From assembly GCA_016869675.1 (NCBI GenBank), contig VGDP01000017.1:1-62755 (forward strand): a stretch of DNA of 62,755 bases. The letters are read 5' to 3'. Positions within the stretch are counted from its first letter, which is position 1, and each line of letters opens with the position of its first letter. The translations under genes and the position numbers were made by a program. The DNA is from Alphaproteobacteria bacterium. GTDB lineage: Bacteria; Pseudomonadota; Alphaproteobacteria; SP197. Below, piece after piece: positions 4,342 to 43,193 of the stretch. A model generated the notes under the pieces. It did not search any database and had not been told where the DNA came from. It was given only the letters and a program-made list of their open reading frames with translations.

Positions 4342-4356
4342 GGCACCTTGTATGAT

Positions 4357-4371
4357 GTTCTTCTTTTGTTC
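4357..4371. promoter_or_regulatory. LexA (SOS) box, alphaproteobacterial type
   Basis: GTTCTTCTTTTGTTC matches the direct-repeat GTTC-N7-GTTC recognised by LexA in alphaproteobacteria. It lies 16 bp before the start of the leftward zinc-ribbon gene and 71 bp before the rightward FAD oxidoreductase, so the leftward gene is the more likely target. Confidence 0.7.
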
Positions 4372-4442
4372 TCATATCGCGTTCACCAGACGCTGCCAAG
4401 GTCGTGGTCGCCGGGTAGGATGGGCGCCCGCGCGGAGTGCCC

Positions 4443-26773: not shown

Positions 26774-26841
26774 GCACCAACCGGGTGCTCACGATTCCGG
26801 CCGACACGGAGATGTCGACCCGGATCGCCCTGCCGTGGTGA
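26770..26841 (+). CDS. 23-residue ORF coupling cupin gene to hldE
   Basis: The cupin stop overlaps an ATG (ATGA at 26770) that opens a 23-codon frame, [15 protein letters not shown] then STRIALPW, whose TGA overlaps the GTG of hldE. It could be a leader that couples translation, or the remnant of a longer lost gene. No homology is evident. Confidence 0.3.
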
Positions 26842-28318: not shown

Positions 28319-29929
28319 TCAGACCAGCAGGGCCATGCCGCCGCCGTAGGCTGGGTCCCCCGCTCCGGTCAGCCGATCACCGTCGATCTTGATGGGATGG
28401 ACGCCGGCGATGGCGAAGCTGAGCGGGTTGCGGTCGATCGCATAGCCCTCGACCGCGAGCTGATCCGAAACGAAGCGCGGGATGCGCGCCGTCACCTCGA
28501 TGGCGTCGCTCAGCGCCGAGAAGCGGGGCGCGATCACCGCCTCGGTGATCGACATGCCGAAATCGATGACGTTGAGGATGACCTGCAGGACCCCCATGGC
28601 GATGTGGGTCCCGCCCGGCGCCCCGATCACCAGCATCGGCTTGTCGTCCTTGAACACGATGGTCGGGCAGATGGAGGAGAAGCGCGCCTTGCCCGGCGCG
28701 ATCGATCCGGCCCGGCCCGGGCGCGGGTCGAACACGCCCATGCAGCCGTTGTACATGAACCCGAGGCCATCGGTGATCACGCCCGACATCATGCCGAGCG
28801 AGTGCGTCATCGAGACGATGTTGCCGCCCTTGTCGATCACCGAGATGTGCGTGGTGCCGGGAGACTCGGACGAGGGCAGGCGCGTGACCCGAACGCGGCG
28901 GCCGGCGCGGATCTCGTCGGTGCGCGCCCTGGCGTAGGCTTTGTCCGTCAGGCGTGCCACGGGAACGTCGACGAAGGCCGGGTCGCCCACATGGGCATCC
29001 TTGTCGGCGGTGGCTGACTTCATGGCCTCGGCGACCAGCTTGATCATCGCGGGCGTGTTGTGGCCCAGCGCGGTGACGTCGAAATTCTCGAGGATGTTGA
29101 GCATTTCGATGAGCTGGATGCCGCCGCCGGGTGGCCGGTTCGTCGTCAGCCGATGCCCGCGATACGTGCCGACGAGAGGTTCCGTCTCGACGGTCCGGTA
29201 CGCCGCCAGGTCCTGGGCATCGAGCAGCGCGTCGTGCGCCGCCATGTCGGCGGCGATCGTGCGCGACAGGGCCCCGGTGTAGAACGTCTCGGCGCCCTCC
29301 TCCGCGATCTGCGTGAGGGTCCGGGCATAATCCGTGTTGCGGATGATCGTGCCGATCCGCTTCGGGTTGCCCTCGGCATCGAGGTAGAGAGCACGCGAAC
29401 CGGCGCTGTGGCGCAGGCGGTCGAGGATCGGCACGCGCGGGTCGGGGTCGACAGACATCCAGTAGTGGTAGACATCGGGCGACACGGCGAAGCCATCGGC
29501 CGCCTGGGCGATCGCGGGCGCGACGACGTCGCACCACGGCAGGACGCCGAAGCGTCGGTGGACCTCGTGGTAGGCCTTGAGCGAGCCGGGCGTCGTGATC
29601 GATCGGTAGCCGACGTCGTTGACGCGTCCCTTGAGCACGAAGCCGAAGCCGTCGCGCGTCTCGCCCTCGATCAGATGCTGCCACATCTCGGGCCGGGCAC
29701 GCCGCGGCACGCGGCCGTGGAAGTCGACGATCGCGTGAGCGCCGCGGCCGGGCATGTAGACTTGGCAGCTGCCGAAGCCGGCGATGCCGCACATCAAGGG
29801 GTCGACCACGCCCTGGACGAAGGCGCAGGCGATCGCCGCGTCGACGGCGTTGCCGCCCTTCATCAGGGCCAGCGCGCCGGCCTCCACCGCCTCGGGCTGC
29901 GGCGCGCAGATCATTCCGTGGGCAACCAT
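28319..29929 (-). CDS. ggt: Gamma-glutamyltransferase family enzyme
   Basis: 536 aa N-terminal nucleophile hydrolase. The proenzyme is expected to cleave before the Thr in PGTTHISVIDKGGNIVSMTH; other GGT features are GGNAVDAAIACAF near the N-terminus and a conserved glycine loop in MLVIGAPGGTHIAMGV. There is no signal peptide, so it is probably cytoplasmic, as expected for a catabolic enzyme that hydrolyses gamma-glutamyl amides. It is the last gene of the six-gene leftward operon, 36 bp after the LivH-type permease, which fits a role in removing a gamma-glutamyl tag. Confidence 0.88.
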   Translation of the reverse strand: MVAHGMICAPQPEAVEAGALALMKGGNAVDAAIACAFVQGVVDPLMCGIAGFGSCQVYMPGRGAHAIVDFHGRVPRRARPEMWQHLIEGETRDGFGFVLKGRVNDVGYRSITTPGSLKAYHEVHRRFGVLPWCDVVAPAIAQAADGFAVSPDVYHYWMSVDPDPRVPILDRLRHSAGSRALYLDAEGNPKRIGTIIRNTDYARTLTQIAEEGAETFYTGALSRTIAADMAAHDALLDAQDLAAYRTVETEPLVGTYRGHRLTTNRPPGGGIQLIEMLNILENFDVTALGHNTPAMIKLVAEAMKSATADKDAHVGDPAFVDVPVARLTDKAYARARTDEIRAGRRVRVTRLPSSESPGTTHISVIDKGGNIVSMTHSLGMMSGVITDGLGFMYNGCMGVFDPRPGRAGSIAPGKARFSSICPTIVFKDDKPMLVIGAPGGTHIAMGVLQVILNVIDFGMSITEAVIAPRFSALSDAIEVTARIPRFVSDQLAVEGYAIDRNPLSFAIAGVHPIKIDGDRLTGAGDPAYGGGMALLV

Positions 29930-29965
29930 GGCGCACCTTCCTTCCGTGGACGGGGAGACGCGACC

Positions 29966-30859
29966 CTAGCGCACGCTCTCCCGCGCGCGGCCCATCAACC
30001 CGCGCGGCCGCAGCACCAGGATCAGGATGACCAGGGCCAGCGTCAACGCCTCGCGGTAGGCTACCAGGTCGTCGGGCAGGAAGGCGCGCAAGCCGATCTC
30101 GATGAAGCCAAGCAGAAAGCCGCCGGCTACCGCCCCCTCCAGACGGCCCAGGCCGCCGACGATGACCGCGATGAAGGCCTTGAGCACCGGCAGGAAACCC
30201 ATGAGCGGATCGACCGAGCCACGCTGCGCCACCCAGAACGTCGCCGCAGCGCCGGCCAGCACGCCGGAGACGCCGAACGCCGCCGCGATCACGGCGTTCG
30301 CCCGAATGCCCATCAGCCGTGCCACGTCGAAGTCACTGGCGGCCGCGCGCATGGCGATGCCCATGCGCGTACGCCGGAAGAACACGGTCAGCCCGGCCAG
30401 CAGCGCCAGGGTGACGATGATCGACAACGCCTGGATCGTGCCGACATGCAGCGTGCCCAGGGTCCACGATCCGGTCAGCACATCGGGCACCGCGACCGGC
30501 CGCCCCTTGGGCGAGATCAGGTTCTGGAACAGCACCTGCATGATGCCGCTCACCGCGAAGCTCGTCAGCAGCAGTGCCGCCGGGCTGGCGCTGCGTACGG
30601 GGCGGAAGGCGATCTTCTCCATGGCGACCGCGATTGCCAAGCCCGTGACGACCGCCGCCACGATGCCCAGCCCGAACGGCAGGCCCACCAGAATCACGAA
30701 CCACAGGCCGTAGCCCGCGCCCGACATGATCTCGCCATGGGCGAAGTTGATCAGGCCCATCATGCTGAACACGATGGCGAGCCCGAGTGCCAGCAGCGCG
30801 TAGGTACCGCCCAGGCTAAGCGCGTTGAGCACCTGCTGCAGCAACAGCTCGATCGTCAC
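29966..30859 (-). CDS. livH: Branched-chain amino acid-type ABC transporter permease (LivH)
   Basis: 297 aa inner-membrane permease with about eight membrane segments. The N-terminus LLLQQVLNALSLGGTYALLA and GLINFAHGEIMSGAGYG are LivH hallmarks; the EAA-like loop is ARLMGIRANAVIAAAFG. It forms the membrane channel with the LivM part of the fused protein upstream. Transporters of this family also carry amides, urea and aromatic acids, so the substrate need not be leucine. Confidence 0.92.
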   Translation of the reverse strand: MTIELLLQQVLNALSLGGTYALLALGLAIVFSMMGLINFAHGEIMSGAGYGLWFVILVGLPFGLGIVAAVVTGLAIAVAMEKIAFRPVRSASPAALLLTSFAVSGIMQVLFQNLISPKGRPVAVPDVLTGSWTLGTLHVGTIQALSIIVTLALLAGLTVFFRRTRMGIAMRAAASDFDVARLMGIRANAVIAAAFGVSGVLAGAAATFWVAQRGSVDPLMGFLPVLKAFIAVIVGGLGRLEGAVAGGFLLGFIEIGLRAFLPDDLVAYREALTLALVILILVLRPRGLMGRARESVR

Positions 30860-30911
30860 GAGTCGTGGTCCCCCGCGGTCCGGCCAGGCCCACGCGGTCG
30901 CCAGGACGTCG

Positions 30912-31640
30912 TCATGCCGCCGATTCCCGTTCGAGGCCCAGATAGGCCTGGGCCAGGCCAGCGGAGCGCCTGAGCTCGGCCGCCGGTCCAGACATGACGA
31001 TCGCGCCGTTGGCCAGCACGTAGGCGTGGTCGGCGATGTCGAGCGCGCGGTCGACGTTCTGTTCGACCAGCAACAGCGTCAGGCCGCGCCGCTTCAGGTC
31101 GACAATCCGTTCGAAGATCGTGTCCACCACCTTTGGCGCCAGGCCTAGCGAGGGCTCGTCCAGCAACAGCAGGCGGGCGGCCGAGAGCAGCGCGCGGGCG
31201 AGCGCGAGCTGCTGCTGTTCGCCGCCCGACAGGCTGCCGGCCTTCTGGCCTCGCCGCTCGTAGAGCACGGGGAACAACGCGAACACCTGGTCGCGGTCGG
31301 CGGCGATGGTCGCGCGGTCGCGCCGGCCGACCGTGGCGACCACCAGGTTCTCGTCCACCGTCAGGTCGGCGAACACCCGGCGGCCTTCGGGCACCATGGT
31401 CATGCCGCGCCGCACGATGCGTTCGGGCGGCCAGCCCAGGATGTCCTCGCCGTCGAACGCGACGCGCCCCGACGCACCACGCGCCCAGCCCATCAGCGCG
31501 CGGAGCGTCGACGACTTGCCCGCCCCGTTGGGCCCGAGCAGCGCGACCAGGCCGCCGCGTTCGACCGAGATGTCGATGCCACGGACGGCCTGGACTGACC
31601 CGTAGGCGACGCCCAGGTCCTGGACGACCAGGGCGCTCAC
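30912..31640 (-). CDS. livF: Branched-chain-type ABC transporter ATPase (LivF)
   Basis: 242 aa from GTG 31638-31640. Walker A GPNGAGKS, Q-loop region MVPEGRRVFADLTVDENL (typical LivF), signature SLSGGEQQQLALARAL, Walker B LLLLDEPSLGL and EQNVDRAL. An upstream ATG at 31742 would overlap the binding-protein gene and is rejected. It partners the LivG domain of the fused permease-ATPase. Confidence 0.93.
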   Translation of the reverse strand: MSALVVQDLGVAYGSVQAVRGIDISVERGGLVALLGPNGAGKSSTLRALMGWARGASGRVAFDGEDILGWPPERIVRRGMTMVPEGRRVFADLTVDENLVVATVGRRDRATIAADRDQVFALFPVLYERRGQKAGSLSGGEQQQLALARALLSAARLLLLDEPSLGLAPKVVDTIFERIVDLKRRGLTLLLVEQNVDRALDIADHAYVLANGAIVMSGPAAELRRSAGLAQAYLGLERESAA

Positions 31641-31656
31641 GCTACGTGCGTCCGTG

Positions 31657-32829
31657 TCACGGCGCCGGGACGTCGGCCGCGGCCGGCTGCATGTTGCCCA
31701 GGTGCTCCTTGGCGCCGCCGGTGACACGCACCAGGGCGACATCGCGCAGCGCCACGTTGTTGGGCGTGTTGAGCGCGACCGTGCTGCCCGTCACGCCCTT
31801 GAAGTCGGTCATGGCGGCCAGTGCGTCGCGGATAGCCGCACCCTCGGTCGAACCGGCGGCCTCGATCGCCTTGGCGAGCGTCATGACGGCCTCGTGCGCC
31901 ACGGCCGCGAACGGCGCCACGTCGGTCTCGATGGCGCCGCCGTAGCGCGCCACATAGGCCTTGTAGAACGCCTCGAGGTCGCTGCCCGGGGCGGGGAAGC
32001 CGCCGGTGGTGAACACGACGCCCTCGGCGATCTCGCCCAGCGCCAGCGTGGTGCCGGAATCGATGCCGTCGCTGCCGATCACCGGCGTGGTGATGCCGGC
32101 CGCGCGGAGCTGCTTGATGAACGCCGGGAAGTCGGGCTCGTAGGCCGAGGTCATGATGACGTCGGGCTGCGGGTCGAGCGCCTTGATGTTGGTGACCTCG
32201 GCGCTGAAATCCTGCTGGCCGAACGCGTACGTGCCCTGGCCGACCAGCGCCCCGCCCATCTTCTGGAACGCGTCGGCGAAGTAGAGCGGCAACTTCTCGG
32301 TGTAGGGCGTGTCCGGCGAGATCAGGATGTAGGCGTTGGCGTAGCCCCGTTCGCGCGCGTACTTGGCCGAGACCGCCGCCTGCAGGTTGTCCGCCGTGTA
32401 AGTCTGGAACGTGTAGTCGCCGACCGCGGCGAAGAGCACCGGGGTCGACGCGCAGGGCGCGATGACCGGGATCTGCGCCGCCTGCGCCGGCTGGGCGAAG
32501 GCGATGGCCGGGTCCGCGTCGCACGGCGAGATCAGCGCCACCGCCCCGGCGGCGACCAATTCATTGCCGGCGACGGCGGCGGCGGCCGCCTCGGAGCGCA
32601 CGTCCTTCACCTGGAAGTCGATCATGTACTTGCCGGCGATGCCGCCGGCCGCGTTGATCTCGTCCACCGCCATCTGCGCGCCGTTGAGCACGAGCCCGTC
32701 GTAATACGCCAGGTAGCCGGTCAGGCCGCCGCCGAAGCCGATGACGATGGTCTCCTGCGCCTGGGCCAGCGGGGCCTGGCTCAGGGCCGCCGCCGCTGCC
32801 AGCGTGCCTAGGACGTGTCTGCGCTTCAT
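31657..32829 (-). CDS. ABC transporter substrate-binding protein (LivJ/LivK-like)
   Basis: 390 aa periplasmic type I binding protein. Signal peptide MKRRHVLGTLAAAAALSQ ends at AQA|Q; the mature part begins ETIVIGFGGGLTGYLAYYD and contains LNGAQMAVDEINAAGGIAGK, the family's usual opening, with two Rossmann-like lobes. The ligand pocket cannot be assigned; its place beside an FAD amine oxidase and gamma-glutamyl enzymes suggests an amine or amino acid. Confidence 0.9.
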   Translation of the reverse strand: MKRRHVLGTLAAAAALSQAPLAQAQETIVIGFGGGLTGYLAYYDGLVLNGAQMAVDEINAAGGIAGKYMIDFQVKDVRSEAAAAAVAGNELVAAGAVALISPCDADPAIAFAQPAQAAQIPVIAPCASTPVLFAAVGDYTFQTYTADNLQAAVSAKYARERGYANAYILISPDTPYTEKLPLYFADAFQKMGGALVGQGTYAFGQQDFSAEVTNIKALDPQPDVIMTSAYEPDFPAFIKQLRAAGITTPVIGSDGIDSGTTLALGEIAEGVVFTTGGFPAPGSDLEAFYKAYVARYGGAIETDVAPFAAVAHEAVMTLAKAIEAAGSTEGAAIRDALAAMTDFKGVTGSTVALNTPNNVALRDVALVRVTGGAKEHLGNMQPAAADVPAP

Positions 32830-32851
32830 GGATACCTCCTCTGTCGTTGGT

Positions 32852-34651
32852 TCAACCCTCGGAATTCGGTTCGGTCGGCCGATGCGCGCGGCCCAGATAG
32901 GCCTCGATCACCGCCGGGTCCTTCTGCACCACGGCGGGCGGACCCTCCGCGATGACCTGTCCGCGATCGAGCACGACGACCCGATCGCACAAGCGCATGA
33001 TCAGCCTGAGGTCGTGGTCGATGACCAGGAGACCGATCCCCGTCTCGTCGCGCAAGCGCCGCAGATCGTCAAGCAGCGCGTCTGACTCCGTCTCGTTCAT
33101 GCCGGCCGCCGGCTCGTCCAGCAACAGGAATCGGGGCGCCAGCGCAACCGCCCGCGCGATCTCGAGCCGGCGCTGCGGACCGTACGCCAGCGTCCCCGCC
33201 GGCCGGTGGGCCAAGGCGTCCAGGCCGAACTGCGCGAGCAGGGGCCCAGCGTCGAGGCCCGAGCGTCGCGCCGCCACCTCCACGTTCTCGTGCACGCTCA
33301 GGTTGCGGAACAGTCGGATGTTCTGGAACGTGCGGCCCAGGCCCCGGCGCGCCATGCGCCACGCCGGCCAGTCGGTGGCGTCCACGCCATCCAGGGTCAC
33401 GCGACCGGCATCGGGCCGCAGCACACCCGAGATCAGGCCGAGCAGGGTCGATTTGCCCGCGCCGTTCGGCCCAATCAATCCGACGATCTCGCCGGTCGCG
33501 AGGCGCAGGTCCACGCCGTCCACGGCGCGCAGACCGCCAAAGCTGCGGCCGATGCCTTCGGCGACCAGCGCGCCGGCGGCCTCGACGCGCGGCAGAGGGC
33601 CCGGCGCGACATGCGGTGAAGCGGCGGGCGCGACGAGTTCCTCGATCTCGGCGAAGCCGAGGAGGCCTTGGGGTCGTCGATACATGACCAGCAGGATCGC
33701 CAAACCGAGCCCCACCACGGTCAGGCCGAACACCGGCGGTACCGCCAGGCTGCCGATCGCGAAGCCTTCCTCCAGCCGGCGCAGGGCTTCGATCAGCACG
33801 GTGACGAGCACCGCCCCCGCCACGGCGCCCGAGACGCTGGCCATGCCGCCGACGATCAGCATGGCGAGCAGCGCGAACGTCAGATGGAAGTAGAAGGCCT
33901 TCGGCGTGATGACGCCGAGGAAATGGGCGTAGAGCGCCCCGGCGACGGCCGCGACCATGGCGCTCAGCAGCCACGACGACCAGCGGCGCGGCACGGCGCG
34001 CACACCGACCGCACCGGCCGCCGGCTCGTCCTCGCGCGTCGCGCGCAGCTCCAGCCCAATACTGCTGCCGCGAAAGACACGCGCGAGCACGATCGCCACG
34101 GCGGCCGCGGCAAACGCTGTCCACACGCCGACGGTGATCGGGATGCCGTAGAACGCTTGGCTGCCGCGCGTGATCTCGCGCGCGCCGATCAGCACGTTGT
34201 AGACGATAACCAGCAAGCCAAGCGTCGCGATCGACGCGGCAGCACCGTCCAGCCGAGCGATGACCATGCCCGTCAGCCCGGCTACCAACCCGACTCCCAG
34301 GACAACGAAGGCGAGCGACAGCGGCAGCGGCAGTTCGACCACCGCGAGGAACGCGGGCAACCCCGGCAGGTTTCCGGCCTTGAAGTTCGGCGCCACGGTC
34401 AGGATGGCGGACAGGTAGCCGCCCAGCGCCATGAAGCACGTGTGCCCGAAGCTGACGATACCGGCGTTGCCCACGTAGATGCCGATGCCAACCACGGCGG
34501 TCAGTGCCACGAAGAAGTTGACCACCGTCTGCGTCCACGCCGGATCGCCGGCGGCCGCCGTCGCGATCGCGACCAACGCCAGCGGCGCCACCAGGAACGC
34601 GGCGCCCCGGAGATCCCGCGCGGCGCGCGCGGCGTGCGTCGAAGCCGCCAT
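32852..34651 (-). CDS. Fused LivM permease - LivG ATPase
   Basis: 599 aa. Residues ~1-320 are a LivM-type permease (YVGNAGIVSFGHTCFMALGG, EIEL-like loop RATREDEPAAGAVGVRA, several membrane segments); residues ~355-590 are a LivG ATPase (Walker A GPNGAGKST, signature-like LAYGPQRRLEIARAVAL, Walker B FLLLDEPAAGMNETE, LVIDHDLRLIMRLCDRVVVLD). Such fusions are known in alphaproteobacteria. The ATG overlaps the stop of the upstream FAD oxidase (TGATG), so oxidase and transporter are expressed together. Confidence 0.92.
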   Translation of the reverse strand: MAASTHAARAARDLRGAAFLVAPLALVAIATAAAGDPAWTQTVVNFFVALTAVVGIGIYVGNAGIVSFGHTCFMALGGYLSAILTVAPNFKAGNLPGLPAFLAVVELPLPLSLAFVVLGVGLVAGLTGMVIARLDGAAASIATLGLLVIVYNVLIGAREITRGSQAFYGIPITVGVWTAFAAAAVAIVLARVFRGSSIGLELRATREDEPAAGAVGVRAVPRRWSSWLLSAMVAAVAGALYAHFLGVITPKAFYFHLTFALLAMLIVGGMASVSGAVAGAVLVTVLIEALRRLEEGFAIGSLAVPPVFGLTVVGLGLAILLVMYRRPQGLLGFAEIEELVAPAASPHVAPGPLPRVEAAGALVAEGIGRSFGGLRAVDGVDLRLATGEIVGLIGPNGAGKSTLLGLISGVLRPDAGRVTLDGVDATDWPAWRMARRGLGRTFQNIRLFRNLSVHENVEVAARRSGLDAGPLLAQFGLDALAHRPAGTLAYGPQRRLEIARAVALAPRFLLLDEPAAGMNETESDALLDDLRRLRDETGIGLLVIDHDLRLIMRLCDRVVVLDRGQVIAEGPPAVVQKDPAVIEAYLGRAHRPTEPNSEG

Positions 34652-35826
34652 CACGCGGTGTCGCCGAAGCGGGCCAGCGCGAAGTCATCGAGCGCCGGCG
34701 CCTGGCCCGCCGCGACCAACCGCGCCACCTCCTCGCCCACCGCCGGACCCAACTTGAAGCCGTGCCCGCTGGATCCGCAGATCATGTGCGCTCCGTCCAC
34801 CCCCGGCAGTCGATCGATGATCGGCAGGTCGTCGGGGCTCATGTCGTAGAGCCCCGCGTAGCCGCGCCGTACGCCGAGGCTCTCGAACGCCGGCACGCGC
34901 CGCACGATGTGGGTCAGGATCTCGGTGGACCCCGCTTGATCCACCAACTCGTCATAGGCGTCCGGATCATCGGCCTGGTCTGGACGCTCCACATCGCCAT
35001 GGCGCACCCCCGTGCCGCCGCCGGCCCACGAACCGACCAAAATCGTCCCCTCGCCTTCGGGCCGCGCGTAGTTGCACAGGATGTCGTCGCACCAGGCGAA
35101 GGGCAGAATCGCGCGGGCGCGCGCCGGGGCGTCAAGCACCGCCATGCCGTGCCGCTCGACCGTGATCGGCAGTTCGACGCCGAGCCGAGCGGCGATGGGC
35201 CGCGTCCACACCCCGGTCGCGAGCACAACCGCGTCGGCACCGATGCGCTCCCCACCGGTCGTCTCGATCCCCGCCACACGGCCCCGTTCCACCACCAACC
35301 GCATCATGGCCGTGTCCAGCCGGATACGCGCACCCGCCCTCCGGGCACCTTCCGCCAGGGCGTTCGCTGCGCCGTACGGATCCGCGTAGCCGCACGTGGG
35401 CTCCCAGACGCCGAGCGCGGCATCGTCGGTGACGATGCCGGGCGCCATGCGCGCCACCTCGGCCGGCGCGATCGCCTCGATGGCCGCGCCCTCGCCCTTG
35501 ATGCGCTCGACCGCCGCGCGCCATGCCGGTGCCGCCTCGGCGCCCACCAGCCACATCATCCCGACCGGACGGAACACGACCGGCGCGCCGATCGTGGCCG
35601 GCAGATCGCGCAGGATGGCCGTGCCGCGCGCCGCCAGCCGCGACAGCGCGGGCGCCATGTAGAACGCATGGCAGATCGCCGAGGACCGCCACGTGGGGCC
35701 ATACGCAGGATGACGCTTTTCCAACAGCGTCGTCGCCACGCCGCGCGCTGCCAGATGATACGCCGTGCTGACCCCGGCGATACCCGCCCCGACGACGACG
35801 ACCTCGGTTCCTCGCGCGTTCGCCAT
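34651..35826 (-). CDS. FAD-dependent amine/amino-acid oxidase (DAO family)
   Basis: 391 aa from ATG 35824-35826 with AAGGGG upstream. N-terminal VVVVGAGIAGVSTAYHLA binds FAD; the C-terminus HMICGSSGHGFKLGPAVGEE is the conserved end of sarcosine/glycine-oxidase-like enzymes. First gene of a leftward operon with a Liv-type transporter and GGT, directly behind the shared control region with rpiR. It probably oxidises an amino acid or N-substituted glycine that is imported or made by the pathway. The exact substrate is unknown. Confidence 0.87.
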   Translation of the reverse strand: MANARGTEVVVVGAGIAGVSTAYHLAARGVATTLLEKRHPAYGPTWRSSAICHAFYMAPALSRLAARGTAILRDLPATIGAPVVFRPVGMMWLVGAEAAPAWRAAVERIKGEGAAIEAIAPAEVARMAPGIVTDDAALGVWEPTCGYADPYGAANALAEGARRAGARIRLDTAMMRLVVERGRVAGIETTGGERIGADAVVLATGVWTRPIAARLGVELPITVERHGMAVLDAPARARAILPFAWCDDILCNYARPEGEGTILVGSWAGGGTGVRHGDVERPDQADDPDAYDELVDQAGSTEILTHIVRRVPAFESLGVRRGYAGLYDMSPDDLPIIDRLPGVDGAHMICGSSGHGFKLGPAVGEEVARLVAAGQAPALDDFALARFGDTA

Positions 35827-35860
35827 GGCCCCTTCACGGCTGCGGAGAGATGTTGCACGG

Positions 35861-35889
35861 ACGTTATCAAGGCGCCAATCCACCGTCAA
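35861..35889 (-). promoter_or_regulatory. Possible promoter of the leftward oxidase-transporter operon
   Basis: On the reverse strand TTGACG (35884-35889) and TAACGT (35861-35866) are 17 bp apart. The -10 is weak, but the position, 34 bp before the oxidase start and 32 bp downstream of the palindromic operator, suits a regulated promoter. Confidence 0.4.
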
Positions 35890-35921
35890 ATTGGTTGCAA
35901 CGTCGACGACGCCGTATCAAT

Positions 35922-35939
35922 CTGTAATCGATATTACAG
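35922..35939. promoter_or_regulatory. RpiR-type palindromic operator
   Basis: CTGTAATCGATATTACAG consists of 7-bp arms CTGTAAT/ATTACAG around CGAT. The half sites resemble the TGTAAT...ATTACA operators known for HexR, an RpiR-family repressor. It lies 16 bp before the GTG of the RpiR gene and in front of the divergent oxidase operon, so it probably controls both. Confidence 0.75.
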
Positions 35940-35955
35940 GCTGCGCGGGTTCGCC

Positions 35956-36867
35956 GTGACCCAGGGCATCACCGTCCGGGACCTGTTGACCAGCGGGAAG
36001 GTCAGCCTGACGCGCGCCGAACGGCGTGTCGCCGGCGCCCTGCTCGCCAACTACCCGACGGCCGGTCTGGCCACCGTCGCCCAGCTCGCCGACGAGGCGA
36101 AGGTCAGCGACCCCACGGTGGTGCGCCTGGTGTCGAAGCTGGGGTTCGAGGGCTATGGCGCGTTTCAGCGCACACTGCTGCGCGAGGTCGAAAGCCGCAT
36201 GCGTTCGCCGCTGGCCATGCTGCCCGCCCGCCGGCGCCAGCTGCATCGCCGCGATCTCTACGGCCGGTTCATGCGCAACGCGGGCGACAGCATCGAGGCG
36301 GCCATGGGCCTGGTGCTGCCGGCGGACTTCGAGACCGCCGTCGAACTGCTGACCGATCCGCGTCGCCGCGTGCATTGCGTGGGCGGCCGGTTCAGCCGCT
36401 TCCTCGCCGCCATGCTGCGCGCGCACCTGTGCCAGATGCGCCGCCACACGGCCGTGATCGACGGCACGCACTCCGACATGATCGACGGGCTGGTCGAGAT
36501 CGACCGCCATGACGTCGTTGTCGTGTTCGACTACCGCCGCTACCAGGAGGACGTGGTCGCCTTCGCCGGCGAGGCGCACGAGGCCGGCGCCGCCATCGTC
36601 CTGATGACCGATCCCTGGAAATCGCCGATCGCGGCTTTCGCCGACGTGACCCTGATCGCCCCGGTCGAGGTGCTGTCGCCCTACGACACCATGGTGCCGG
36701 CCATGGCGCAGGTCGAGGCGCTGGTGGCAGCGTGCGTCGCGCGGCTCGCCGATCGCGCGCGCGGCCGTCTGCGCCGGCTCGAGGCGCTGCGCCGCCGCCA
36801 CCGCGTCACCGTGGACGCCCGTCACGATGCCCCGACGCGCCGGCGGGCGGCGGCGCCGACACCATGA
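35956..36867 (+). CDS. RpiR-family transcriptional regulator
   Basis: 303 aa from GTG 35956. The N-terminal RpiR helix-turn-helix domain covers ~1-80 (LTRAERRVAGALLANYPTAG, DEAKVSDPTVVRLVSKLGFE) and a SIS domain follows (~130-280; VHCVGGRFSRFLAAMLR, DVVVVFDYRRYQED). SIS domains of this family bind phosphosugars or other small effectors. The last ~35 residues are a basic, Arg-rich tail. It is the first gene of the rightward operon, overlapping the aminotransferase start, and faces its presumed operator. Confidence 0.9.
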   Translation: MTQGITVRDLLTSGKVSLTRAERRVAGALLANYPTAGLATVAQLADEAKVSDPTVVRLVSKLGFEGYGAFQRTLLREVESRMRSPLAMLPARRRQLHRRDLYGRFMRNAGDSIEAAMGLVLPADFETAVELLTDPRRRVHCVGGRFSRFLAAMLRAHLCQMRRHTAVIDGTHSDMIDGLVEIDRHDVVVVFDYRRYQEDVVAFAGEAHEAGAAIVLMTDPWKSPIAAFADVTLIAPVEVLSPYDTMVPAMAQVEALVAACVARLADRARGRLRRLEALRRRHRVTVDARHDAPTRRRAAAPTP

Positions 36868-38192
36868 CCGACGCCCGCGCCGATCTTCTGACCCGCGACG
36901 CGCGTGTCATGGCCGCGATCCAGAAGCTGCGCTTCTCGCCCGTGGCGGTGACCGGCGGCAAGGGTTGCTCGTTGATCGAGGCCGGCGGCCGGGAGCTCCT
37001 GGACCTGTCGGCGAGCTGGGGTTCGGCCAGCCTGGGCCACGGCCATCCGGCCTGGGTCGACGCGATCGCCCGCGCCGCGGCGAACCCCGCCGGGGCGAGC
37101 ACCTTGTCGGCAACCACCGCGCCGGCGGTGGCGCTGGTGGAACGCCTGCTTGCCCTGGTTCCCGGCGTGGGCGACCGGCGCGTCTGGCTCGGCCATTCGG
37201 GCTCGGACGCCAACGAGGCCGCGGCACGCGCCATCGCGGCCGCCACCGGCCGGCACCGCTTCATCGCCTTCACCGGCGCCTACCACGGCGGTAGCGCGGG
37301 ATCGATGGCGATCTCGGGCCACGCCGTGCAGGCGCACGCCGCGCGCGCACCCGGCCTGGTGCTGATCCCCTACCCCGACGTCTACCGCGAGGAGCCCGCC
37401 GCCGACCCCGGCGCGGCGGTGCTGGCCGAGCTCGATCGCCGCTTCGCCACCGACGTCGACCCGCGCGAAGTCGCCGCCCTGTTCATCGAACCGGTCCAGA
37501 GCGACGGCGGACTGCTGGTGCCGCCGCCGGGTTTCCTGCGCGCGCTGGCCGATCGCTGCCGGGCGCACGGCATCCTGATCGTGTGCGACGAGGTCAAGGT
37601 CGGGCTGGGGCGCAGCGGCCTGCTGCACGCCTTCGCCCACGACGGCCTGTCGCCCGACGTGGTCACGTTCGGCAAGGGCCTGGGCGGCGGCCTGCCGCTG
37701 TCCGCCGTGGTCGGGCCGGCGGCGATCCTGGACCACGCGACGGCCTTCGCCATGCAGACCTTGCACGGCAATCCGGTCACAGCGGCGGCGGGGCTCGCGG
37801 TGCTCGACACCATCGAGGCCGAGGGCCTGGTCGCCAACGCTGCCGCGATGGGTGCGCGTCTGCAGGCGGGCCTGCGCGACTTGGCGCAGCGTCATGCCTT
37901 GATCGGCGACGTGCGCGGGCGTGGCCTGGTGATCGGCGTCGAGCTGGTCACGGACCGCGCGTCCAGGACGGCCGCGCGCGATGCCGCCGCCAAGGTTGTG
38001 GTGCGCGCGCTCGAACACGGCGCGGTGGTCTACTACGTTGGCAAGCGCTCCAACGTGCTGGAGCTGACACCGCCCCTGGTGATCGACGCGGATGCCGTCG
38101 ACCGCGCGGTGGCGATCCTGGGGCGCGCCATAAGCGACGTGGAACGCGGCCTGGTTCCCGATTCGGCGATCGCCGGGTTCACGGGCTGGTAG
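36864..38192 (+). CDS. Class III PLP aminotransferase
   Basis: 442 aa. Family landmarks: GHGHPAWVDAI, WLGHSGSDANEAAARAI, AYHGGSAGSMAISGH, LIVCDEVKVGLGRSG (PLP-binding Asp) and FGKGLGGGLPLS with the Schiff-base lysine. The usual DEVQTG is DEVKVG here. It is related to 4-aminobutyrate and other omega-aminotransferases. Translational coupling (ATGA) to the RpiR gene suggests it acts on the pathway's amine or on glutamate/GABA products. Confidence 0.9.
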   Translation: MTDARADLLTRDARVMAAIQKLRFSPVAVTGGKGCSLIEAGGRELLDLSASWGSASLGHGHPAWVDAIARAAANPAGASTLSATTAPAVALVERLLALVPGVGDRRVWLGHSGSDANEAAARAIAAATGRHRFIAFTGAYHGGSAGSMAISGHAVQAHAARAPGLVLIPYPDVYREEPAADPGAAVLAELDRRFATDVDPREVAALFIEPVQSDGGLLVPPPGFLRALADRCRAHGILIVCDEVKVGLGRSGLLHAFAHDGLSPDVVTFGKGLGGGLPLSAVVGPAAILDHATAFAMQTLHGNPVTAAAGLAVLDTIEAEGLVANAAAMGARLQAGLRDLAQRHALIGDVRGRGLVIGVELVTDRASRTAARDAAAKVVVRALEHGAVVYYVGKRSNVLELTPPLVIDADAVDRAVAILGRAISDVERGLVPDSAIAGFTGW

Positions 38193-38206
38193 GGAGGCGG
38201 ACGATC

Positions 38207-39556
38207 ATGGCGCGTGCGCGGACACCGAAACGCCCTCGCGGCGGGCCTTCGGGCGACGAGCTGGTTCTGCTGGCATGGAACGATCTTGTCGCCATGACGC
38301 GCGGACGCGCCGTCCCTGTCTCGGAGTACGCCTCGCGCCGCGCCGTCGGGATCAACTGGGCGATGGCGGGCCACGCCCTGACCCCGTTCGAGGACATCGC
38401 CGACAACCCCTGGTGTTCGATGGACGAGGTCCACATGACCCCCGCCGAGGAGACCCATGTCCGCTTCGAGGTCGGCAACGGCCAGCCGGCGTTCAACATG
38501 GCGCTGTGCGACGCCATCACCACCGACGGCGGCACGTGGGATTCCTGCCCGCGCGGATTCCTCAAGGGGGCCATCGCCGACCTGCGCAGGCGCCACGGGC
38601 TCGAGCTCCTGGCCTCACCCGAGCTCGAGTTCCAATTGGTCGGTGGCACGCTGCCCGAGGCGACGCCCTTCTCGCTCGAAGCGTTCCGGCTCATGCCCGA
38701 CCTGGGCCAGCGGGTCGTCGAGGCGCTGCGCGCCACGGGTTGCCAGCCCGAGACCTACGAACCGGAGTACGGCGTCGGCCAGTACGAGTTCAGTTGTGCG
38801 CCGGCCTTCGGCGTCGCGGCGGCCGACCGCATCGTGCTCGCCAAGGAGGTGGTGCGCGAGGTAGCGCGCCGCGCCGGCCTGCGGGCGAGCTTCACGCCCA
38901 AGCCCTACCCGAACCGCCCGGGCAACGGCGCCCACATCCACCTCAGCCTGTGGTCCGGCGGCAAGCCCGCCACCCACGACCCGTCGCGTCCCGGTGGCAT
39001 GACCGAGAAGGCGGCGCGCTTCGCCGCCGGCATCGTGCGGCACATGCCGGCCCTGTGCGCCTTCGCCGCGCCCAGCGTGCCGTCGTACTACCGGCTCGGC
39101 CCACACCACTGGAGCGCCGGCTACGCGTGCATGGGCGTGACCAACCGCGAGGCCGCGCTGCGCGTCTGCCTGCCGTCCAAGGGCACGGCGGCGTCGGTGC
39201 ACCGACGCTTCAACCTGGAGTACCGCCCGGCCGACGGCACCTCCAGCCCGTACCTGGCGCTGGGCGCGCTGGTGCGGGCGGGCTTGGCCGGTCTCGACGA
39301 GAAACTGCCGCTGCCGCCGCTCGTCCAGGAGGACCCGCACGACATGGGTGAGGCCCGCCGCCGCGAGCTCGGCATCCGGCCCCTGCCCACCTCGCTCGGC
39401 GAGGCGTTGGATGCACTGCGCGCCGACCCGGTGGTCTGCGGCTGGTTCGCGCCCAACCTGCTCGACACGTTCATCGCGGTGAAGCGCAAGGAGATCGCGC
39501 TCTGCGAGGGCCTGAGCCCCAACGACATCTGCGAGAAGTACCGCAATGCCTATTGA
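38207..39556 (+). CDS. Glutamine-synthetase-like gamma-glutamyl-amine ligase
   Basis: 449 aa, GS-III/PuuA-like. Active-site features survive: SPELEFQL (Glu pair), GQYEFSC (Glu), NGAHIHLSLWS (ammonia/amine-site His) and a divergent RRFNLEYRPADGTSSPY (Arg-x-Glu-x-Arg-like). The N-terminal beta-grasp domain is reduced. Ligases of this type join glutamate to putrescine, isopropylamine, ethanolamine or other amines using ATP, not to ammonia. Downstream amidohydrolase overlaps by 11 bp. GAGG lies upstream of the ATG. Confidence 0.87.
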   Translation: MARARTPKRPRGGPSGDELVLLAWNDLVAMTRGRAVPVSEYASRRAVGINWAMAGHALTPFEDIADNPWCSMDEVHMTPAEETHVRFEVGNGQPAFNMALCDAITTDGGTWDSCPRGFLKGAIADLRRRHGLELLASPELEFQLVGGTLPEATPFSLEAFRLMPDLGQRVVEALRATGCQPETYEPEYGVGQYEFSCAPAFGVAAADRIVLAKEVVREVARRAGLRASFTPKPYPNRPGNGAHIHLSLWSGGKPATHDPSRPGGMTEKAARFAAGIVRHMPALCAFAAPSVPSYYRLGPHHWSAGYACMGVTNREAALRVCLPSKGTAASVHRRFNLEYRPADGTSSPYLALGALVRAGLAGLDEKLPLPPLVQEDPHDMGEARRRELGIRPLPTSLGEALDALRADPVVCGWFAPNLLDTFIAVKRKEIALCEGLSPNDICEKYRNAY

Positions 39557-40679
39557 TATCGATCGTCCGCTTGTCGACCACCACTGCCACGGGCTGGTGC
39601 CCAAGACCCTGGAACGGGCCGCGTTCGAGAGGCTGATCTCCGAGAGCTTCGTCGCCGCGCCCAAGGGCACCTCGCATTTCGACGCGCCGGTCGGCTTGGT
39701 GATCCGTGCGAAATGCGCGGCCTTGCTCGACCTCGACCCCTTCCCCGACCCCGATGCCTACCTGGCGCGGCGCGCCACGCTGGGCGCCGCCGAGGTCAAT
39801 CGCCGGTTCGTCCAGGCAGGCGGCTATGGGCAGCTCCTCGTTGACACCGGGTTCCGGGGTGGCGACATCCTGACACCGGAGGGCATGGCCGACGCGACCG
39901 GAATCCCGTGCTGCGAGGTCGTGCGCATTGAGGCCGTGGCCGAGCGCGTCGGCCGTTCAGGGGTCTCGGCCGCCGGCTTCGCGCGCGCCTTCGCCGACGC
40001 CCTTGCCGAGGCGGCGCGCGACGCGGTCGGCCTGAAGTCGATTGTCGCCTACCGTGGCGGCTTCGCCTTCGACCCGGCCGCGCCGACCACGGCCGAGGTC
40101 GAGGCCGCCGCCGGGCCGTGGCTCAAGCGCATGGCCTCGGGCCAGGGCCGCATGGACGACATGACCCTGATGCGCCACGGCCTTTGGGTCGCGGCCGAGC
40201 TCACCCGCGCGCGCGCCATGCCGATCCAGTTTCACGTCGGCTACGGCGACCGCGACGCCAAGATCCATCTCAACAACCCGTCGCTGCTGATGGATTTCCT
40301 GCAGCACCTTGACGACATGGGCGTCAACGCCACGCTGCTGCACTGCTACCCCTATCAGCGCGAGGCCGGCTACCTGGCCGAGGTCTTCCCCAACGTCTAC
40401 TTCGACGTCGGCGTGATCCTGAACTACACGGGCGCCATGTCGGCGACGATCCTGGGCGAGGCGCTGGAGCTCGCACCGTTCACCAAGCAACTCTACAGCT
40501 CGGACGCGTTCGGCGTGGCCGAGTTCTACTACCTGGGCGCCGTGCTGTTCCGCCGCGCGCTGCAGCAGCATCTGGACCGCTGGATCGCGGACGGCTTCTG
40601 TTCGGTGCGCGAAGCCGACCGCATCGTCGCGATGATCGCGCACGACAACGCCCGGCGCATCTACCCGCTCGACCACTGA
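39546..40679 (+). CDS. Amidohydrolase of the FluG N-terminal type
   Basis: 377 aa metal-dependent hydrolase (amidohydrolase_2). LVDHHCHGLVP near the N-terminus holds the HxH metal ligands; PIQFHVGYGDRD, LLHCYPYQREAGYLAEVFPNV and LYSSDAFGVAEFYYLGA carry the later His and Asp ligands. In fungal FluG this domain is fused to a GS-like ligase, and here the two genes overlap by 11 bp, so it probably hydrolyses the gamma-glutamyl product of the ligase or acts with it in one pathway. Confidence 0.88.
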   Translation: MPIDIDRPLVDHHCHGLVPKTLERAAFERLISESFVAAPKGTSHFDAPVGLVIRAKCAALLDLDPFPDPDAYLARRATLGAAEVNRRFVQAGGYGQLLVDTGFRGGDILTPEGMADATGIPCCEVVRIEAVAERVGRSGVSAAGFARAFADALAEAARDAVGLKSIVAYRGGFAFDPAAPTTAEVEAAAGPWLKRMASGQGRMDDMTLMRHGLWVAAELTRARAMPIQFHVGYGDRDAKIHLNNPSLLMDFLQHLDDMGVNATLLHCYPYQREAGYLAEVFPNVYFDVGVILNYTGAMSATILGEALELAPFTKQLYSSDAFGVAEFYYLGAVLFRRALQQHLDRWIADGFCSVREADRIVAMIAHDNARRIYPLDH

Positions 40680-40681
40680 CC

Positions 40682-41026
40682 ATGCTTGGCCCGGACGAGC
40701 CCGCGCCATACGAGGTGGTCAACGCCGGGGGCCGGGCGCCGGTGCTGCTGGTCTGCGATCACGCGAGCCCGCGCATTCCCACGGTGCTCGGCGATCTGGG
40801 GCTGGCGGGCGACGATCGGATACGCCACATCGCCTGGGACATCGGCGCCGACGCCTCGCACCTGTTTCGCGCGGGCATTTCCACCGCCATTTACGGGCCC
40901 GGCAAGGTGAACGATATCAACCCCCTCGACGAGAGCATGGCGGTCGCCGACGCGGTCGGCGCCGCGCGCACCTACGCCCTCGCCATCCTCGAAATCTGTG
41001 GCCGCGACGGCGGAGTCCGCGCATGA
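40682..41026 (+). pseudogene. Chimera: N-formylglutamate amidohydrolase start joined to M20 peptidase end
   Basis: The first ~60 residues (FEVVN-like YEVVNAGGRAPVLLVCDHAS, then DLGLAGDDRIRHIAWDIGA) match the N-terminus of N-formylglutamate amidohydrolases. From about residue 63 the sequence switches to GISTAIYGPGKVNDINPLDE, which looks like the C-terminus of M20 deacylases (acetylornithine deacetylase type). A full gene of either kind would be 260-430 aa; this is 114. It looks like an in-frame deletion that fused two neighbouring genes. It is still coupled to the GMC gene (ATGA), so it may be translated, but neither active site is complete. Confidence 0.65.
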
Positions 41027-42687
41027 GCACGTTCGACTACATCGTCGTCGGAGCCGGATCGGCCGGCTGCGCGCTGGCGGCGCGTCTGGCTGAGCAGCGC
41101 GACGCGCGTGTCCTGCTCATCGAGGCGGGTGGCGGCGGTCGGCACCTGTTCGTGCGCATGCCGGCGGCCAACGGCTTCGTCTTCGGCAAGCCGCAGTTCG
41201 ACTGGAGCTTCTACACCGAGCCGCAGCCCGAACTGAACGGCCGGCGCGTCTACTGGCCGCGCGGCCGTGGCCTCGGCGGATCCTCGACGATCAACGGCAT
41301 GATCTACATCCGCGGCAACGCGCGCGATTACGACGGCTGGCGCCAGCTCGGCCTGGAGGGCTGGGCCTACGCCGACGTGCTGCCCTACTTCCGCCGCTCC
41401 GAGGGCAACCCGCGCGGCGACGACGGCTACCACAGCGCCGACGGGCCCCTGAAGACCAGCCGCGCCGGCAACGTCCAGCCGATCGACGAGATCTTCGTCG
41501 CGGCCGCCCAGCAGGCGGGCTACCCGCTCAACCCGGACTTCAACGGCGCAAGCCAGTTCGGCTGCGGCATCTACGACATGACCGTGCGCCACGGCCGCCG
41601 CTCGACCACGGCGCTCTCCTACCTGAGCCAACAACCCAACCTGACAGTCATGACCGGAGCGCTCGCGCTCGGCTTGGCTGTCGAGAACGGCCGGGCCGTC
41701 GGCGTGCGGCTGGCGCGCGATGGCGCGACCGAAACCGTGCGCGCCTCGCGCGAGGTGATCGTCGCCATGGGCGCTATCGGCTCGCCCCAGTTGCTCCTGC
41801 TGTCGGGCATCGGTCCGGCCGACGACCTGCGCCGGCTCGGCATCCCCGTCGTCGCCGACGTACCGGGCGTCGGGGCGAACCTGCACGATCACCCGAACGT
41901 GCCGGTGCAGTACGTGTGCACCAAGCCCGAACTGAGCTTCACGCGCTACATGCGCGCCGATAAGGCGATCGGCATCGGCCTGCGCTACCTGCTGACGCGC
42001 GACGGGCCGGCGGCGGCACCGTTATGGAGCGCCGGCGCGTTCAAGGCGCTGTCGCCCGGCGCCGACGTGCCGGCGCTCCAGGTCTTCTTCACGCCCATGG
42101 TGATTGTCGAGGACCCCAAAGGCTCGACCAGCGTCAAGGCGCGCTCCACCTTCGGCGCTGGCATCTTCACGCGTGGCAAGTACGCGATTCCCGGATTCCA
42201 GTTCGACGTCAACCAGATGCACCCGCGCAGCCGCGGCACGCTCAGCCTGCGCTCGACCGATCCGCGCGACCACCCCCTGATGGACCCGCGCTATCTGACC
42301 GAGGAGATCGACCGGCGCGAGATGGTCGAGGCCGTGAAGGCAGGGCGCGAGATCGTGAGCCAGAAGGCGTTCGATCCGATCCGGGGCGAGGAGTTGCGGC
42401 CCGGGCCCGCCGTGCGCAGCGACGCCGATATCCTGGAGGCGGTACGCAACAGCCTGATCTCGGGATATCACCCCGTGGGCACATGCAAGATGGGCGTGGC
42501 GAGCGATCCCATGGCGGTGGTCGACGCCAGCCTGCGCGTGCGCGGCGTCGAGGGCCTGCGTGTGGTCGATGCCTCGATCATGCCGATCCTGGTCACCGGC
42601 AACACCAACGGCCCCACCGTGATGATCGCCGAGAAGGCGGCCGACATGATCCTGGGCCGGCCACCCCTGCCCCGCGCCGAGGTGTGA
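41023..42687 (+). CDS. GMC-family FAD alcohol dehydrogenase (choline-dehydrogenase-like)
   Basis: 554 aa. Signatures: [17 protein letters not shown] (FAD), [19 protein letters not shown] (GMC motif 1), [18 protein letters not shown] (motif 2), and the catalytic His-Asn pair in [11 protein letters not shown] and [17 protein letters not shown]. Enzymes of this group oxidise primary alcohols such as choline. In this operon, after a gamma-glutamyl ligase, it could oxidise the hydroxyl of a gamma-glutamylated amino alcohol (inference). Confidence 0.92.
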
Positions 42688-43193
42688 GCGCGACCGTCCG
42701 TCGCTTGCGCGGCCCGCGCCGGGTCGCGATCGCACGCGAAATCCTCGAATCGTTGCCGGCGTGGTTCGGCACCCGACGCGCGCGCGAGGCCCACATCCAG
42801 CAGGCCGGACGCGCGCCCATGTACGTGTGCGAGGACGGCGCGGGCATCGTCGGGTTCCTGGTGCTCGAGCGCCTCATGACGGCGGCGTGGGAGATCGCGG
42901 TCATGGCCGTGCGGCCCGATCGCCACCGGCGGGGCGCTGGCCGCGCCCTGGTCGCGGCGGCGGCGGCCCACGCGGCGGCGCGCGGTGCCACCCTCCTGAC
43001 CGTCAAGACGCTCGCGCCCTCCTCGCCGGATCGCGCCTACGCCCGCACGCGCGCCTTCTACCGCGCCATGGGGTTCGTGCCGCTGGAGGTGTTCCCGACG
43101 CTGTGGGGCCGCGACAACCCTTGCCTGCTGATGGCCCTGCCCCTGGTGCCGCCGCACCGGCGCCGGACAACGAGCGCGCTTAGCCGCCCTTGA
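42684..43193 (+). CDS. GNAT-family N-acetyltransferase
   Basis: 169 aa from GTG 42684, overlapping the GMC stop (GTGA). The acetyl-CoA loop is [18 protein letters not shown], followed by [13 protein letters not shown] and [14 protein letters not shown]. Substrate unknown. It closes the rightward operon; its stop lies 14 bp inside the end of the convergent MoaD-like gene. Confidence 0.82.

Follow-up and report, generated by a model that had tools for sequence, protein, structure and literature searches.

Organization of the locus

We analysed a window, by which we mean the whole stretch of 62,755 nucleotides making up positions 1 to 62,755 of an alphaproteobacterial contig (VGDP01000017.1; all positions below refer to it), and describe here a divergent locus within it that encodes a predicted racemase, a predicted gamma-glutamyl ligase, several hydrolases, a Liv-type ABC importer and an RpiR-family regulator (Table 1). 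Seven genes read rightward and six leftward across a 129-bp gap (35827–35955) that holds one palindrome; all of their reading frames are open, and adjacent rightward genes overlap or lie no more than 14 bp apart. This divergent arrangement around a single control region had been recognized in an earlier note on the same DNA. The span given there, 35861–43193, is limited to the rightward genes and the control region and omits the leftward operon (28319–35826), and the seventh rightward gene, which it left unnamed, is an open reading frame (ORF) of 114 aa. We hold the identities listed in Table 1, which are assignments by sequence, with considerable confidence. The earlier interpretation of the regulon as a whole is partly supported, as set out below.

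Table 1. Genes and features of the divergent locus, with the basis of each assignment
Feature	Position	Strand	Basis and remarks
Palindrome TGTAATCGATATTACA	35923..35938	none	putative RpiR operator in the shared control region 35827–35955; sequence, genome uniqueness, recurrence
RpiR-family regulator (HTH_6 + SIS)	35956..36867	+	Pfam; GTG start assumed; 53% to Shinella cluster RpiR
Class-III-fold pyridoxal phosphate (PLP) enzyme, predicted alpha-amino-epsilon-caprolactam (ACL)/amino acid amide racemase type	36864..38192	+	PDB matches, catalytic residues
Glutamine synthetase (GS)-fold ligase, predicted gamma-glutamyl ligase of PA5508 type	38207..39556	+	4HPP match, trees, site residues; first ATG
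FluG-like binuclear-metal amidohydrolase (PF04909)	39546..40679	+	2QPX match, metal ligands, predicted model
N-formylglutamate amidohydrolase (FGase, PF05013)/M20 chimeric remnant, 114 aa	40682..41026	+	first 56 aa FGase N-terminus, remainder M20 hydrolase C-terminus
GMC oxidoreductase, choline-dehydrogenase-like	41023..42687	+	family models; apparently lineage-specific addition
GNAT acetyltransferase	42684..43193	+	family model; start uncertain; apparently lineage-specific addition
DAO-family FAD oxidase	34651..35826	-	Pfam; PDB matches are sarcosine-oxidase family
LivM-LivG fusion (permease + ATPase)	32852..34654	-	Pfam; fusion shared with relatives
LivJ-type binding protein, C-D-x-D signature	31657..32829	-	Pfam, alignments
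LivF ATPase	about 30912..31640	-	Pfam; ORF opens at 31742, start inferred
LivH permease	29966..30859	-	Pfam
Gamma-glutamyltranspeptidase (GGT)-family Ntn hydrolase	28319..29929	-	family models, alignment; signal peptide not evident by eye

A racemase-type enzyme beside a PA5508-type ligase

The second rightward gene is assigned by Pfam to the class III aminotransferases, and it had been read as catalysing a transamination. This is not borne out by its closest relatives of solved structure, namely 5M46–5M4D (543–547 bits; 547 for 5M49 and 5M46), 2ZUK from Achromobacter obae (537 bits) and 6GIO (499 bits), with the next family, isoleucine 2-epimerase, following only at 266 bits. We take 5M46–5M4D, deposited under the PDB title 'Aminotransferase class-III', to be ACL racemase (ACLR). 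Comparison of the chains shows that 5M4B and 5M4D carry Ala at one Asp and one Lys position, presumably the catalytic Asp210 and Lys241 of ACLR. The window enzyme, which matches ACLR and 6GIO over its full length, has the same Asp and Lys (D214 and K245) together with the PLP-binding lysine (K271), and all three are retained in 41/41 aligned homologues. At the D214 and K245 positions E. coli PuuE has Glu and Gln, and in locus L134 an omega-type aminotransferase shows Gly and Ile there; the transaminase residues of the PuuE type were found neither in the window enzyme nor in the 41 homologues, and the window enzyme reached the cut-off of none of the 25 NCBIfam models listed. Since both the PDB relatives and the catalytic residues are of the racemase type, we reject the transaminase reading and predict an ACL or amino acid amide racemase, thereby correcting the annotation 'aspartate aminotransferase family protein' that is common on rhizobial plasmids. 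Two papers give the substrates of ACLR as alpha-amino lactams, amino acid amides, esters and homocysteine thiolactone (PMC11391342, PMC7431475).

The neighbouring ligase (searched with a form three codons longer, 38198–39556) finds its best solved relative in PA5508 of Pseudomonas aeruginosa, a hexameric GS homologue (4HPP; 365 bits, 43% identity across 438 aa), and the other solved GS structures score at most 160 bits. A 28-row tree of hand-picked rows places it, with 100/100 support, in a 22-row group with PA5508, the ligases of racemase clusters and amidohydrolase-adjacent ligases; on the other side of the split lie E. coli GlnA, PuuA and four further GS-family proteins of the window genome. 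A quick 63-row tree, made from an unfinished search, agrees with this split, and the score against the PuuA model NF045547 (285.4 bits) is under its cut-off of 650. As a side observation, the 3.49-Mb window genome has unusually many Gln-synt_C matches, 18 from about 14 genes by count, three of them on contig C5.

The site residues are in keeping with this placement. Like PA5508, the ligase keeps the glutamate-, ATP- and metal-site residues (E129/E131/E212/E220/H269/E357 and R321/R339/R344/R359), as well as the HHW motif. At the position of GlnA Glu327, which we take to be the flap residue of the ammonium site, Trp is present in the window ligase, in PA5508 and in 41/41 cluster ligases (12/12, 13/13 and 16/16 in three groups); across all 63 aligned rows Trp fills 56, and Glu occurs only in E. 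coli GlnA and the window genome's own GlnA. We rejected this Trp as a mark of the clade because two GS-fold paralogues of the window genome outside the clade share it, so that it counts against an ammonia-using GS without defining the group. The 100/100 split and the absence of Glu at this position thus support the view, already taken in the earlier note, that the enzyme is an amine ligase; the phylogenetic placement proposed there sets it with PA5508 and apart from GlnA, and we predict a gamma-glutamyl ligase of the PA5508 type.

The importer and its regulator

A dedicated importer had also been claimed for this locus, and this is supported. In 28/28 LivJ proteins of such clusters, the C78-S79-S80 segment of leucine-binding protein (LBP) is replaced by D-x-D with a preceding Cys, with A, V, F or Y in the place of Ser79 between two invariant Asp residues; G100 is also replaced by Cys, but both tyrosines, Y150 and Y202, are retained, as is an acid at E226. 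We take Ser79 of LBP to bind the carboxylate and E226 to bind the amine. As this leucine-type Ser79 of branched-chain amino acid binding proteins is replaced in the window LivJ and the acid at E226 is kept, the predicted ligand has an amine and lacks an ordinary carboxylate. The C-D-x-D signature is found in 34/34 close LivJ relatives from clusters (the 28, those of Sulfitobacter and Paracoccus, and those of loci L118, L151, L155 and L177), and extends to LivJ types only about one third identical to that of the window; it is present even in L118, an actinobacterial racemase locus whose LivJ is merely 27–28% identical to the query proteins. It occurs in none of the nine other Peripla_BP_6 proteins of the window genome, and in none of six distant LivJ-like proteins from actinobacterial ligase–amidohydrolase loci that have no racemase. 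Outside the set, the corresponding residues of homologues are A-D-A-D in Phyllobacterium, T-D-S-D in Deinococcota and A-D-P-D in R. etli.

The palindrome of the control region ends 17 bp ahead of the assumed RpiR start and is the sole site in the window genome matching TGTAATN4ATTACA with at most one mismatch. In the fetched loci (2.51 Mb) the form TGTAAYN4RTTACA occurs nine times when overlapping loci are counted, or at seven distinct places, because two pairs come from the same contigs. Six of these places lie within 170 bp of an estimated RpiR start or in the gap preceding the importer: within about 65 bp of the RpiR start in L022/L051, L024, L026/L047 and L043, about 160 bp upstream of RpiR in the actinobacterial L098, and in the importer–FAD gene gap in L054. 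The seventh, in L111, lies 1.5 kb ahead of the ligase. Uniqueness in the genome and recurrence beside RpiR or importer genes in some clusters support the earlier view that RpiR comes with an operator-like site, and the palindrome is the probable RpiR operator. It presumably resembles a HexR site.

Recurrence of the gene set

The taxonomic order of the window genome was covered by one family of 16 genomes, so that a search across the order added nothing to one across the family; 13 of the 16 have the amidohydrolase at E<=1e-30 (the window genome included, and one a fragment at a contig end). The relatives show LivMG-LivJ-LivF-LivH-(DAO)-racemase-FGase in one direction and (RpiR)-ligase-amidohydrolase in the other, with an isochorismatase-family hydrolase after the latter in some cases. 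Scanning species genomes for the amidohydrolase supplied 80 loci, the best 80 of at least 500, which with 13 fetched loci make 93 neighbourhoods (some overlapping, one without the amidohydrolase). At a match threshold of E<=1e-8, with the proviso that distant paralogues of large families can score as matches and that many contigs end nearby, these contain the ligase in 64, RpiR in 38, LivMG in 38, LivF in 36, the class III fold in 34, FGase in 32, LivH in 25, LivJ in 21, an isochorismatase-like protein in 8, the DAO oxidase in 7, a BhcC-like protein in 5 and GGT in 4, and neither the GMC nor the GNAT protein in any. Of the gene set that the earlier note expected to recur, the ligase, amidohydrolase, RpiR and importer thus do so, but GMC and GNAT do not and GGT hardly does.

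On plasmids, the racemase is matched at E<=1e-100 by 31 records, and all eight loci that we opened (from Shinella, Ensifer, Sinorhizobium, Rhizobium, NT-25 and Maritalea) contain the racemase, ligase, FGase, isochorismatase-family hydrolase, RpiR and Liv importer, although, being mostly from Rhizobiaceae, they are not fully independent. In two overlapping samples of 385 and 398 genomes, 8 of 16 racemase copies other than the window's own have the ligase, FGase and Liv importer beside them. Searches anchored on the window-type LivJ return 13 plasmid records, 10 of which are among the racemase records; Sulfitobacter has the cluster with the racemase and Paracoccus without it, and at a Phyllobacterium LivJ locus no ligase was seen within 9 kb. 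Plasmids of Deinococcus and Allomeiothermus (L198 and L199) place a distant LivJ homologue beside the ligase and a FluG-like amidohydrolase, with no racemase match; they also hold a cyclase-family protein and are probably a sister system.

Hydrolases and apparent lineage-specific additions

The amidohydrolase matches 2QPX (LSEI_0440) with 188 bits, and its H13, H15, K164, H230, H266 and D320 correspond to the metal ligands and bridging Lys of that structure and are invariant in alignments of 9 and 16 sequences, which predicts a binuclear metal site of the FluG/2QPX type. Its predicted model (pLDDT 93) has 2QPX as the closest fold (TM 0.80), followed by uronate isomerases and then an uncharacterised amidohydrolase; the fold search confirmed the fold and indicated no function. 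The 2QPX gene can reportedly substitute for the N-terminal half of fungal FluG (PMC6478659). The adjacency of the two enzyme families in the window recalls FluG, a fungal amidohydrolase–GS fusion, LSEI_0440 and the SCO6961–GlnA3 pair; the window differs in having separate genes with a racemase and an importer.

Residues 1–56 of the 114-aa ORF represent an FGase N-terminus (59% identity to the protein of a relative), and the remainder, which has no Pfam match, resembles M20 hydrolases: all ten listed matches of 23 are annotated M20 or ArgE/DapE, at 40–43% identity. It is an in-frame deletion chimera within the operon and probably no enzyme. We rejected the idea that this amounts to a loss of function, because the genome has three further FGase genes, one of them 43–49% identical to cluster FGase. 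In some relatives, for example L033 (1977–3125), a BhcC-like 3-hydroxy-D-aspartate aldolase/D-serine dehydratase homologue directly follows FGase.

The GGT-family protein keeps the autoprocessing Thr and the SS motif when aligned to 2E0W and scores 360.3 against TIGR00066 (cut-off 357.85), but has His in the column of E. coli Arg114, which we take to bind glutamate, with an Arg two residues further on. This residue, and the presence of an FGase-family hydrolase in most relatives, weaken the earlier assignment of GGT as the remover of glutamate. GGT was also rejected as a recurring partner or alternate of FGase, given its four neighbourhoods and the distant LivJ-like proteins without C-D-x-D found in them. 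In the actinobacterial loci L092, L097, L100 and L105, ligase–amidohydrolase and Liv-type genes and a distant binding protein lacking C-D-x-D occur with a GGT-family gene 31–35% identical to that of the window. Immediately left of the window GGT gene, on the opposite strand, lies a PfkB kinase–cytidylyltransferase-like fusion (26835–28298) that we take, from its domain order, to be HldE-like.

Of the oxidoreductases, the DAO oxidase is present, besides the seven neighbourhoods counted above, in the Rhizobiaceae-type loci L175, L178 and L179 (52–54% identity); we rejected it as PuuB, to which it is only 22% identical. The GMC protein passes PRK02106 (631.7 bits, cut-off 605) and falls below the model of the betaine-forming choline dehydrogenase BetA (TIGR01810, 550 bits against 732.1). 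A GMC C-terminus adjoins the ligase on the opposite strand in L176. With no neighbourhood to their credit, GMC and GNAT were rejected as conserved parts of the set and are apparently lineage-specific additions. The oxidation of a hydroxyl by GMC, which the earlier note had made a step of the pathway, is therefore at most a local extension. A PRK06148-type fusion of kinase, M23 and class III domains lies beside the cluster in L156 (6220–9264) and in L196 of Paracoccus (3079–6108), and another, judged by length and match, in L157 (10623–13667); it might provide a kinase and phospho-lyase for amino alcohols.

A candidate regulon for import and breakdown

We propose that the locus is a substrate-specific import and breakdown regulon in which an alpha-amino compound without a free carboxylate would be racemised, gamma-glutamylated and hydrolysed, a reading to which we give a probability of roughly 0.45. 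RpiR would bind the palindrome and switch both divergent operons. The importer, whose binding protein appears to keep the amine pocket of the leucine family without the carboxylate-binding Ser, would take up a small compound lacking a free alpha-carboxylate; that this is an alpha-amino amide, lactam or ester-like compound is suggested with equal restraint. The ACLR-type enzyme would interconvert the enantiomers of the compound, the PA5508-type ligase would attach a gamma-glutamyl group to an amine, and hydrolases (the FluG-like amidohydrolase here, FGase and the isochorismatase-family hydrolase in relatives) would cleave the amide bonds and return glutamate, with the GGT-family enzyme possibly substituting for the broken FGase in the window. 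The product might be worked up by the DAO oxidase and, in this lineage, by GMC and GNAT. That both enzymes serve one pathway, in the order racemase, ligase, hydrolase, and what each hydrolase does in it, we infer. A narrower form of the proposal is tentative and less probable, namely a catabolic route, not described in the literature searched, for alpha-amino amides, lactams or (thio)lactones through N-gamma-glutamyl intermediates as the natural role of ACL racemase, the racemase equalising enantiomers, the ligase tagging the alpha-amine, and interchangeable hydrolases cleaving the amide or ring and freeing glutamate.

Several observations weigh against this proposal. The racemase (at least 42% identity) accompanies the amidohydrolase in only 15 of those 80 loci, namely 9 of the 31 that are proteobacterial or unplaced and 6 of the 49 that are actinobacterial, so that the ligase and amidohydrolase also serve without it. 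Among the 16 sampled racemase copies, three lack the ligase but have FGase, joined by Liv in one case and by the amidohydrolase in another, with the third lying at a contig end; one has the Liv importer as its sole partner; and for four no clear partner is seen over about 10 kb (one shows a weak ATPase match; some contigs end nearby), one of these adjoining a PF01425 amidase. The binding protein of a Nitratireductor ligase/FGase/RpiR cluster has S-D-T-T instead of C-D-x-D, and in L062, L130 and L196 the signature is present with no racemase in the stretch seen. The strict palindrome was not found in the remaining clusters, including the plasmid loci L148–L155 and L130–L132, and no oxidoreductase stands out as belonging to the rhizobial plasmid set, which leaves the tagging of the amine unexplained. 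Finally, PA5508 reportedly prefers bulky amines (PMC6478659), and the SCO6961 amidohydrolase adjoins the polyamine ligase GlnA3 and is polyamine-induced (PMC5403932).

These last points favour a gamma-glutamylation of aromatic amines or polyamines like that of PA5508 or GlnA3/SCO6961, in which the racemase would serve some side substrate, as do the placement of the ligase in the PA5508 clade and the larger number of ligase–amidohydrolase loci without the racemase than with it. We consider this unlikely, as the racemase is found with the ligase in several families as well as on plasmids, the Liv-type binding protein has a signature of its own, and no aldehyde dehydrogenase is evident in the annotated recurring set, for which no family search was made. 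The pathway of the earlier note, in which an amino alcohol is imported, gamma-glutamylated, oxidised at its hydroxyl by GMC, freed of glutamate by GGT and transaminated, is improbable to us. The racemase-type residues of the PLP enzyme, the lack of GMC and GNAT in the neighbourhoods and the missing canonical glutamate-binding Arg of GGT all speak against it. In its favour are the choline-dehydrogenase-like GMC and the PRK06148-type fusions of L156, L196 and L157, which are of a kind that could act on amino alcohols; given these fusions, an amino alcohol substrate is possible in some lineages. A proposal that GlnA4 and an FGase-family protein act on ethanolamine also lends it some support (PMC6529630).

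Salvage or detoxification of an alpha-amino (thio)lactone, such as homoserine lactone or homocysteine thiolactone, would combine racemase, N-glutamylation and ring opening by the metal amidohydrolase, and receives little credence from us. The cluster has no lactone-specific feature, and the folds next after 2QPX are the uronate isomerases and the uncharacterised amidohydrolase. On the other side, lactonases belong to the amidohydrolase superfamily, and SsoPox variants appear among the low-ranking matches of the fold search. ACLR is also reported to exchange the homocysteine thiolactone alpha-hydrogen (PMC11391342). The importer might instead be an ordinary amino acid importer that scavenges nitrogen, its neighbouring genes being only loosely linked. 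In support, every single family is common, as the 18 Gln-synt_C matches (about 14 genes) of the window genome alone illustrate; yet the set recurs across families and plasmids, some clusters have the operator-like site, and the binding protein has its signature, so that we find this reading very hard to credit.

Relation to known pathways and implications

Some parts of the proposed regulon are already known separately, namely the gamma-glutamylation routes (Puu, GlnA3, GlnA4/ethanolamine), the amidohydrolase–ligase pair and ACLR. The Puu pathway of E. coli (PuuABCDE) likewise tags an amine with glutamate, oxidises with a DAO-family flavoenzyme and releases glutamate. The window proteins are, however, only 27% (ligase), 22% (FAD enzyme) and 33% (PLP enzyme) identical to its components, the set genes include no aldehyde dehydrogenase, and a racemase type replaces the gamma-aminobutyrate transaminase. 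The gamma-glutamyl ethanolamine pathway (GlnA4; Chromohalobacter salexigens, S. coelicolor) shares an FGase-family hydrolase, proposed there for gamma-glutamyl-glycine; the window has the FGase remnant, and the set genes include neither a PF00465 alcohol dehydrogenase nor an aldehyde dehydrogenase. As for PA5508, the accessible literature mentions no racemase or Liv importer with it (its own genome neighbourhood was left aside), and searches on PA5506–PA5510 and gamma-glutamyl homoserine lactone gave nothing useful.

In the literature searched, from which subscription papers mostly fell outside and much of which was available in part, no paper names both ACL racemase and glutamine synthetase, combines ACL racemase with N-formylglutamate or gamma-glutamyl compounds, or treats a racemase/gamma-glutamylation set, an RpiR/FGase/isochorismatase/GS set or a set with GMC. 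In the portions of those papers found, ACL racemase is treated as a biocatalyst or brought in for comparison, its use being the deracemisation of amino acid amides; its homologue here is encoded within a regulated import and ligase cluster. That importer, ligase and racemase share an island suggests a natural function for the racemase in a breakdown pathway still to be charted, and since the cluster recurs, is regulated and includes an importer, the natural substrate can be put to the test. The finding would also bear on the role of FluG-type amidohydrolase–ligase pairs. If true, the N-gamma-glutamyl route would account for what ACL racemase does in nature, with an importer signature and an RpiR operator by which to recognise it.

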